Positions 18,693 through 50,556 of a stretch of 64,000 bases of DNA are shown piece after piece; position 1 is the stretch's first letter, and each line of letters begins with the position of its first letter. Made by a program: the position numbers and the translations under genes. The notes under the pieces were generated by a model. The model was given only the letters and a program-made list of their open reading frames with translations, searched no databases and had not been told where the DNA came from. The stretch comes from an uncultured Bacteroidales bacterium (GTDB taxonomy: Bacteria > Bacteroidota > Bacteroidia > Bacteroidales > UBA932), in assembly GCA_944326315.1 (NCBI GenBank), contig CALVDP010000001.1, positions 36,903 to 100,902 of the forward strand. Reading direction: 5' to 3'.

Positions 18693-18706
18693 AATATCAC
18701 AATATA

Positions 18707-18756
18707 ACGATTTCTTCGAAATCTCTTTTCCTTTTGCGTGTCACCCCTCTTAATTT
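18707..18756 (-). repeat. Dispersed structured repeat, copy A (short form)
   Basis: On the minus strand this segment reads TTAAGAGGGGTGACACG, then CAAAAGGAAAAGAGATTTCG and AAGAAATCGT. It matches the left half of copies B and C2 almost base for base. It contains the small hairpin GATTTC-GAA-GAAATC (18709-18723) but lacks the large 14-15 bp inverted repeat found in B and C2. The TAA at its beginning is the xseA stop codon, and its other end is 14 bp before the xseB start. Confidence 0.8.
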
Positions 18757-42212: not shown

Positions 42213-42243
42213 AATAAGGATCCCCGTTATAATATCATAAAAC

Positions 42244-42388
42244 AACGTCAGTTCGACAAATTATTCTGTTCAATATCCGAGATTCCGTCGAACTGACGTT
42301 ACGACTTCTTCGAAATCTCTTTTCCATTTTCGTGTCACCCCTCTTAAATTCTTAAATTCATTCCATTCATTTCATCGAATTCACGTTA
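42244..42388 (-). repeat. Dispersed structured repeat, copy B (full length)
   Basis: About 145 bp between dnaG and metG, read on the minus strand. In order it has an AT-rich left part ('TTAACGTGAATTCGATGAAA'), the conserved TTAAGAGGGGTGACACG core, a small hairpin GATTTC-GAA-GAAGTC, and a large inverted repeat AACGTCAGTTCGAC / GTCGAACTGACGTT (42287-42300 and 42244-42257 on the plus strand). The large stem is 14 bp perfect, with a loop of about 29 nt. Its right end is 31 bp before the metG start, and it points in the metG direction. Confidence 0.85.
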
Positions 42389-42416
42389 AAACAATTCAGG
42401 CAAACGGACCCTGCCG

Positions 42417-50221: not shown

Positions 50222-50338
50222 ACCCTCTTTAAGAGGGTGATACGAAAATGGAAAAGAGATTTCGAAGAAACCTCAACGTCAGTTCGGCGGAATCTCTGAT
50301 ACAGAGTACAATAATTCGTCAAAATGACATTAAAATTA
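50222..50338 (+). repeat. Dispersed structured repeat, copy C1 (degenerate)
   Basis: Located in the 528 bp gap between recQ and the esterase. It has the conserved order: a GAGGGTGATACG core (C2 has GAGGGGTGACACG), GGAAAAGAGATTTCGAAGAA, then AACGTCAGTTCGGCGGAATC. The right arm of the large stem is decayed (CGTCAAAATGACATT), so the hairpin is weakened. A small local inverted repeat ACCCTCTT/AAGAGGGT stands at 50222-50238. Left of it, 50029-50221 is AT-rich and holds nothing I recognise. Confidence 0.75.
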
Positions 50339-50537
50339 ACGTGAATTCGATGAAATGAATGAAATGAATTTCAGAGAATTACCTCTATAGAGGACGAAGT
50401 CCGGCGTAAGTTCTCCCCTACGCAGGGGAGAATTTAAGAGGGGTGACACGAAAAAGGAAAGGGATTTCGAAGAAATCGTAACGTCAGTTCGACGGAATCT
50501 CTGATATTGAACAGAATAATTCGTCGAACTGACGTTA
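50335..50537 (+). repeat. Dispersed structured repeat, copy C2 (full length with an internal extra block)
   Basis: It begins with the same AT-rich left part as copy B (50336-50371). It then has about 60 extra bases (50372-50432) that are absent from B, then TTTAAGAGGGGTGACACG, the small hairpin GATTTC-GAA-GAAATC (50463-50477), and a perfect 15 bp inverted repeat AACGTCAGTTCGACG/CGTCGAACTGACGTT (50480-50494 and 50522-50536) with a 27-nt loop. The right end is 19 bp before the esterase start, in the same direction. Confidence 0.85.
50372..50432 (+). other. Extra block inside repeat copy C2 with two palindromes
   Basis: This block separates the left and right parts of copy C2 and has no counterpart in copy B. 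It contains the perfect palindrome CCTCTATAGAGG (50382-50393) and the hairpin TTCTCCCC-TACGCA-GGGGAGAA (50411-50432). It may be an insertion into the repeat, or B may have lost it. Confidence 0.55.
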
Positions 50538-50556
50538 AAATTAAACAGGATATAAA

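Follow-up and report, generated by a model that had tools for sequence, protein, structure and literature searches.

Several MITEs of bacteria have been named, among them RUP, NEMIS, ERIC and Nezha, and as summarized in PMC3733652 they share with the repeat studied here a short, gene-free sequence with repeated ends, a position adjoining coding sequences and the capacity to form hairpins. Our repeat differs from the MITEs outlined there in its 4- to 7-bp target duplication, which lies between two T^A steps of variable spacing, and in that a parent insertion sequence (IS) was not found (PMC3733652). The CGTC-tagged REPs covered by the same source come close as well, being abundant, with a palindrome preceded by CGTC and no known transposase; however, their stems of 8 to 9 bp and loops of 4 to 5 nucleotides stand against a stem of at least 15 bp and a loop of about 20 nucleotides or more here, and our repeat has two different ends and target duplications (PMC3733652). 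Within the Bacteroidales, BrickBuilt and other MITEs of Porphyromonas gingivalis are likewise intergenic and vary in duplication length between copies, with variable duplications given for three of the four copies examined of a P. gingivalis MITE (PMC4596501). Unlike our repeat, they are described as having IS5-like ends (e.g., GAGACCTTTGCA) that resemble those of resident ISs, internal 23-nucleotide tandem repeats and 19 copies (PMC4596501).

In the literature on inverted repeats and transposable elements of Cryptobacteroides and on Bacteroidales MITEs with target site duplications, we found no description of the family reported here, which is apparently new to the literature. Cardinium also belongs to the Bacteroidota. 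Its MITECca01 is comparable in being a lineage-specific MITE of ~240 bp, but its source is a resident IS982 element (PMC9769881), and for our repeat we found no parent. Of the described elements considered here, MITECca01 and the P. gingivalis MITEs are the closest in kind, and both are unlike our repeat in ends and parentage. The window, i.e., the whole stretch of DNA that was analyzed, comprises 64,000 nucleotides from an uncultured Bacteroidales bacterium. We propose, with a probability of about 0.8 that refers mainly to the transposable-element part of the reading, that the repeat represents a family of non-autonomous, MITE-like DNA transposons with an orientation bias caused by purging.

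Copies in the window and anatomy of the element

The core of the repeat, TTAAGAGGGGTGACACG, is present without mismatches in three copies in the window (A, B and C2; Table 1), and shuffles yielded 0.13 core matches at up to 3 mismatches. That these copies share a core and a small hairpin (P1), as stated in the initial annotation, was thus borne out, and the 14- to 15-bp inverted repeat and loop common to B and C2 are indeed present in the sequence, as are the two G-U wobbles that make up the pairing differences between B and C2. The copy ends given at that time were approximately right, differing by 1 to 3 bases from the borders, which are fixed for copies B and C2 by their target duplications; likewise, the gaps to the starts of xseB, metG and the hydrolase gene amounted to 13, 31 and 20 bp, against 14, 31 and 19 bp. 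Pfam matches (PF02609, PF09334, and PF20434 plus Abhydrolase_3, respectively) backed the names of these three unrelated genes, the "esterase" being an alpha/beta hydrolase.

Table 1. Coordinates of repeat copies, their parts and their target duplications in the window
Feature	Position	Strand	Remarks
Copy A, short truncated form that stops at P1 (..GAAATCGTT)	18706..18753	-	Between xseA stop and xseB start; without left end
Core in copy A	18737..18753	-	Exact
Copy B target duplication, right-end side	42239..42243		AAAAC on + strand
Copy B, 144-bp element	42244..42387	-	Right end toward metG; internal CTCCCC..GGGGAG part absent
Core in copy B	42331..42347	-	Exact
Copy B target duplication, left-end side	42388..42392		AAAAC on + strand; reads GTTTT on B's own strand
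Copy C1, older decayed copy	about 50228-50331	+	C2 inserted directly at C1 right flank
Copy C2 target duplication, left	50332..50337		AAAATT
Copy C2, full-length 199-bp element	50338..50536	+	Right end toward alpha/beta hydrolase gene
C2 left end with imperfect subterminal hairpin (TTCGATGAAAT..ATTTCAGAGAA)	50338..50378	+	
Core in copy C2	50434..50450	+	Exact
C2 hairpin P1, GATTTC-GAA-GAAATC	50463..50477	+	
C2 right-end hairpin P2 (AACGTCAGTTCGACG..CGTCGAACTGACGTT)	50480..50536	+	
Copy C2 target duplication, right	50537..50542		AAAATT

On the basis of the lined-up copies, the borders of the element are fixed, with left end AACGTGAATTCGATGAAATGAATGG and right end AATAATTCGTCGAACTGACGTT. Both ends begin with AACG, share the pattern AACG-N4/5-TTCGA and carry a hairpin; the terminal inverted repeats are therefore present but imperfect (AACGTGAATTCGATGAA versus AACGTCAGTTCGACGAA), and the subterminal arms of the left end match better (TTTCATCGAA) in copies other than C2. 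The copies measured span ~77 to 471 bp between their ends, too short for a transposase gene. In the own genome, 35 of the 54 complete copies measure exactly 199 bp and the remaining ones 77 to 89, 144, 165 to 190, 208, 233 to 238, 311 to 319 or 471 bp, and a second subfamily (subfamily B), found in other congeners, is mostly 231 to 237 bp long. In the short form, only AACG-N5-TTCGA is common to the two ends. Some short copies stop at the small hairpin (..GAAATCGTT) and lack the long right-end hairpin, so that P1 serves as an alternative right end; TA-bounded duplications are present at two short copies (C7:46059 and C13:6283), and no target duplication was found at a third (C11:28520) or at three further copies scored as short. 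The interior of the element is modular: at C7:55027-55345, C10:29623-30093 and C33:20095-20332 of the own genome, different palindromic repeat blocks (GTCTTTCGAAGAAAGAC.., GGGTGACCAAAAGTCAC..) take the place of the CTCCCC..GGGGAG part, as though other intergenic repeats had been captured or had recombined with the element.

Target duplications and the T^A rule

An exact target duplication of 4 to 7 bp flanks 46 of the 54 complete copies in the own genome (4 bp in 15, 5 bp in 22, 6 bp in 7 and 7 bp in 2 copies). Duplications were also seen at 46 of 56 complete copies in a congener, G372, and at 17 of 33 copies of subfamily B, the other 16 being without a duplication of at least 4 bp; with shuffled flank pairings, duplications of at least 4 bp arose in ~9% of the cases in each of these three sets. 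In the own genome, the duplication is preceded by T in 46/46 copies, begins with A in 45/46, ends with T in 38/46 and is followed by A in 44/46. The outer bases behave similarly in G372 (preceding T in 45/46, following A in 41/46) and subfamily B (17/17 and 14/17). Since T and A border the duplications on both sides, the empty target reads TA-N2..5-TA, as though each target strand had been opened at a T^A step, the distance between the two steps being flexible. One enzyme dimer of fixed geometry would not usually leave duplications of varying length; like the subfamily B copies without a duplication, this counts against our reading.

The samples from congeners are defined as follows. For G372, 67 copies were examined; the pattern had given 105 matches, but these include cases of the hairpin in reverse reading. 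Of subfamily B, which gave 88 pattern matches, we examined 58 copies; as exact arm patterns were used to find them, their arms are bound to be invariant, and some of the copies in G251, G162 and G205 may represent one ancestral insertion.

Empty sites in close relatives had been proposed as a check, and we relied on three element-less loci among 46 alignments that cross a junction: for a G372 copy, one in G349 (identity of 82.6% over 808 bp), and for an own copy, those in G201 (79% over 781 bp) and G162 (73% over 758 bp). Although the flanks align across the site, these loci are not base-exact, since the spacers have diverged. Together with the target duplications and the patchy copy number described below, the element-less loci back the MITE-like reading that had been put forward as one of two options. 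Tandem elements were observed at window positions 50228-50542 and, elsewhere in the own genome, at C13:6046-6328, C2:2728-2971 and C10:46563-46859; in such sites, the T^A target for the next insertion is provided by the existing right end, CGTT, followed by A.

Copy number and distribution

That the repeat is dispersed held for the genome as a whole (2.42 Mb), in which we found 62 core matches at up to 2 mismatches, 50 of them exact, and none with the reversed control; the ends gave 255 matches at up to 1 mismatch, again with 0 in the control. Among the matches listed, four copies are identical to C2 over a 199-base query, shifted leftward by two bases relative to the element, and another five are so over 198 bases. 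In view of these many near-identical copies, movement of the family was probably recent. Several of the 103 contigs of the assembly (C21, C23, C29, C33, C35 and C92) begin or end inside an element; the copy number is therefore probably underestimated, and a repeated parent element could be missing.

Combining the end with the subterminal arm, we detected the family in 26 of 400 sampled congeners (own genome included), each of which has 1 to 174 matches, against 0 in the control. This is a lower bound, because a related element in G029 escapes the pattern; the other 374 congeners are without the family as judged by it. At the level of the order, the search with a covariance model that had been suggested was carried out for the right end and matched 2 of 393 genomes, the own genome and one congener, i.e., 1 of 206 genera, under strict filters and with few candidates scored per genome, so that weak relatives may be lost. 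A weak match in G057, of the same order, lies inside an apparent coding sequence and was dismissed, as it looks like chance.

Of the 14 exact matches to the left end in GTDB r220, one is in Candidatus Cryptobacteroides intestinipullorum and the others belong to uncultured Bacteroidales MAGs, which makes Candidatus Cryptobacteroides the most likely host genus of the family. Viral contigs contained 0 matches to two exact end patterns, and plasmids none. In a locus of Ca. Cryptobacteroides intestinipullorum (L107), a left end occurs at a place matching C10:46563 of the own genome (80.6% identity over 432 bp); read by eye, it seems to run into coding sequence.

Search for a mobilizing enzyme

The search covered four families, PF01609 (DDE_Tnp_1), PF01797 (Y1_Tnp), PF00078 (RVT_1) and PF00665 (rve), in eight element-bearing genomes. 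Neither the own genome nor G259 yielded a profile match for any of the four, and one or two of them were present in G372 and others. At PF01609 and PF01797 loci, no element ends were recognized save for one weak partial match in L159; for PF00078 and PF00665 loci, the sole end check was a pair scan of the DNA examined, which found no end pair 0.5 to 8 kb apart with a duplication. Reading a solo-end locus (L126) by eye, we recognized no transposase-like open reading frame. Because the own genome and G259 carry the element yet lack matches to all four families, we considered a mover of an undescribed or non-standard kind, which would cut the strands separately at 5'-T^A-3' and have no fixed ruler, the next TA setting the 4- to 7-bp duplication; we regard this as rather unlikely.

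Two other modes of movement fared worse. Hairpin ends, and weak Y1/RAYT-like genes (280 to 302 amino acids) in G253, G372 and G349, would suit a REP/REPIN-type element that is moved as single-stranded DNA by a Y1 (RAYT) transposase. The clear target duplications, however, largely refute this. To our knowledge, the Y1/RAYT mechanism does not make target duplications. Moreover, there was no Y1 match in the own genome and four other element-bearing genomes, a robust replication-strand bias was not found (see below), and the RAYT loci carry palindromes other than the ends of our element, apart from the partial match in L159, leaving this reading highly improbable. These loci (L159, L160 and L161) each show a RAYT-like gene amid arrays of ~40-bp palindromes whose sequence, read by eye, differs between genomes (e.g., GGACTAAC..GTTAGTCC; CTATCTGC..GCAGATAG), and resemble REP arrays that are specific to each species and surround a RAYT gene. 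Least probable of all, in our view, is a retrotransposed structured RNA of the SINE type: it would give target duplications of variable length, and the structured sequence and sense bias would fit, but RVT_1 was found once in G253 and in none of the own genome, G372, G349, G259, G201, G076 and G162, and in copies with duplications both ends are precise, with no tail, so that this idea is already weakened.

Position and orientation relative to genes

With genes called by a codon-usage script, the right end was found to face a start in 39 of 66 own copies, 43 of 64 in G372 and 43 of 53 in subfamily B. The initial annotation had all copies ending just before a start codon and reading toward the gene. 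The first claim holds for those 39 own copies but not for all, as the other 27 face a stop. The claim on direction holds in an altered form: of the ends that face a start at a distance of up to 30 bp, 14, 24 and 27 are right ends (own genome, G372 and subfamily B, respectively) and 1, 0 and 0 are left ends, a ratio of 65 to 1. In the own genome, what most often lies within 30 bp of a copy is a stop codon next to the left end (23 cases, against 14 starts at the right end), which speaks against a 5' leader as the general function. The own count of positions comprises 68 copies; four of these are right-end hairpins (length 57) that lack a proper left end and have no gene within 30 bp.

Placement before starts was then compared with a simulation in which copies were put randomly, and in random orientation, among TA-N2..5-TA sites of their own spacer; ends within 35 bp were scored for 97 of 143 complete copies, namely those with a duplication of at least 4 bp and a called gene on both sides. 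The simulation predicts 35.5 copies with an end near a start and 31 were seen; hence, there is no attraction to starts. We therefore rejected conserved placement before starts, since target-site density alone accounts for the closeness. Orientation near starts is strongly non-random, in contrast, with 17.8 right and 17.7 left ends expected and 31 and 0 seen, respectively; near stops, 20.5 of each were expected, and 35 left and 8 right ends were seen.

When the count is limited to copies that have both ends (in the own genome, those of more than 70 bp), same-strand spacers hold 60 sense and 12 antisense copies (P = 8e-9). Of the 27 copies in divergent spacers, 19 have their right end nearer (19:8, P = 0.05), and of the 25 in convergent spacers, 16 have their left end nearer (16:9, P = 0.23). 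The convergent sets are mixed (left end nearer in 11 of 14 own copies, 3 of 9 in G372 and 2 of 2 in subfamily B), and an orientation effect is possible in the own genome. Because the bias is strong where an antisense copy would be read into the downstream gene and, albeit with mixed counts, short of significance where it would not, we favor, with somewhat better than even confidence, purging of antisense insertions as its cause over insertion that is itself oriented by transcription, e.g., by open or RNA-paired DNA, in which case sense copies would be made rather than selected. The latter concerns the bias step only and is unlikely, in our estimation. It would account for the 65-to-1 asymmetry near starts, for a sense bias that persists at lagging-side genes (own 6:2, G372 11:4) and for the 11:3 lean toward the left end nearer the stop in own convergent spacers; against it, convergent spacers, which are transcribed from both sides, show no significant preference when pooled, and closeness to starts is no greater than target density predicts.

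A replication-strand bias as the cause was largely rejected. Raw GC skew correlated with orientation (39:9), but most of this signal vanished upon correction for gene strand, with third-position skew giving 34:30 in the own genome and 40:27 in G372 (P = 0.14); G372 contigs with strong corrected skew retain a residual trend (22:9, P = 0.03).

Hairpins and RNA structure

For the sense RNA of C2, the folding energy is -70.8 kcal/mol (z = -6.8 versus shuffles, with the query shifted as above), and the antisense RNA is almost as unusual (-59.9 kcal/mol, z = -6.3). For covariation, 119 of 382 distinct right-end modules, selected for a P1-like motif together with an exact P1 stem of 6 bp or longer, were reduced to 31 representatives and then to 29, L006 being dropped as an artifact with an extra tail and L137 at 1045 because its P1 is of wholly different sequence that still pairs. 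In these 29 diverse modules, 93.9% of cells pair, a rate that is favored for P1 since the rows were preselected for its stem. Changes on both sides occur in 7 of 27 pairs (13 cells, against 4.3 in shuffles), and two of five covariation measures were weak compared with shuffles (double-change pairs, 10/500; further pair types, 54/500). One relative carries a small hairpin of quite different yet pairing sequence. Distinct changes that keep G-U pairing on the sense strand number 19, against 11 that would do so on the antisense strand alone, a difference short of significance (P = 0.20; 34:13 in cells, which are not independent). Selection for RNA structure, as first suggested, is thus no more than a possibility, since paired changes exist but the difference between G-U and A-C changes is not significant. 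In palindromes, covariation could also arise through their repair or because the ends are recognized as DNA.

These data bear on the alternative, again for the bias step only, that a sense RNA with the right-end hairpin before the start regulates or stabilizes the downstream mRNA as a leader, possibly a domesticated MITE. The sense fold of C2, the seven doubly changed pairs and the 27 right ends of subfamily B near starts would be expected of such an RNA. Its antisense counterpart, however, folds nearly as well, the strand asymmetry in G-U pairs is not significant and copies are not in excess near starts. By pattern, 374 of 400 congeners do without the family, 27 of 66 own copies face a stop, and the window copies precede unrelated genes. 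Additionally, Rfam gave 0 matches in the window at gathering scores and 0 in four element-bearing loci at E values up to 1. Taken as a function of the family, a leader RNA is therefore quite improbable, and we attribute the apparent leader placement mostly to the target rule combined with the orientation bias.

As for what might drive purging, the 8 nucleotides after P1 contain exactly five T in 51 of 59 own copies, mostly three to five in G372 and four or five in subfamily B, and P1 itself contributes only -3.4 kcal/mol in the main family; an antisense terminator is thus a weak candidate for the reason.

Proposed mechanism and significance

We envisage that an enzyme supplied in trans would bind the element ends and cut each target strand at 5'-T^A-3', after which gap filling would make the duplication. 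Insertion itself would be roughly neutral with respect to orientation. Antisense insertions in leaders and operon spacers would then be purged, as their antisense reading would interfere with the downstream gene, possibly by termination.

The repeat thus appears to be an abundant and apparently recent mobile family in a genus of which more than 400 species have been sampled. Its target rule, with two T^A steps at flexible spacing, is unusual. Finally, a leader-like placement that seems to arise from site density and an orientation effect may serve as a warning for RNA motif discovery.
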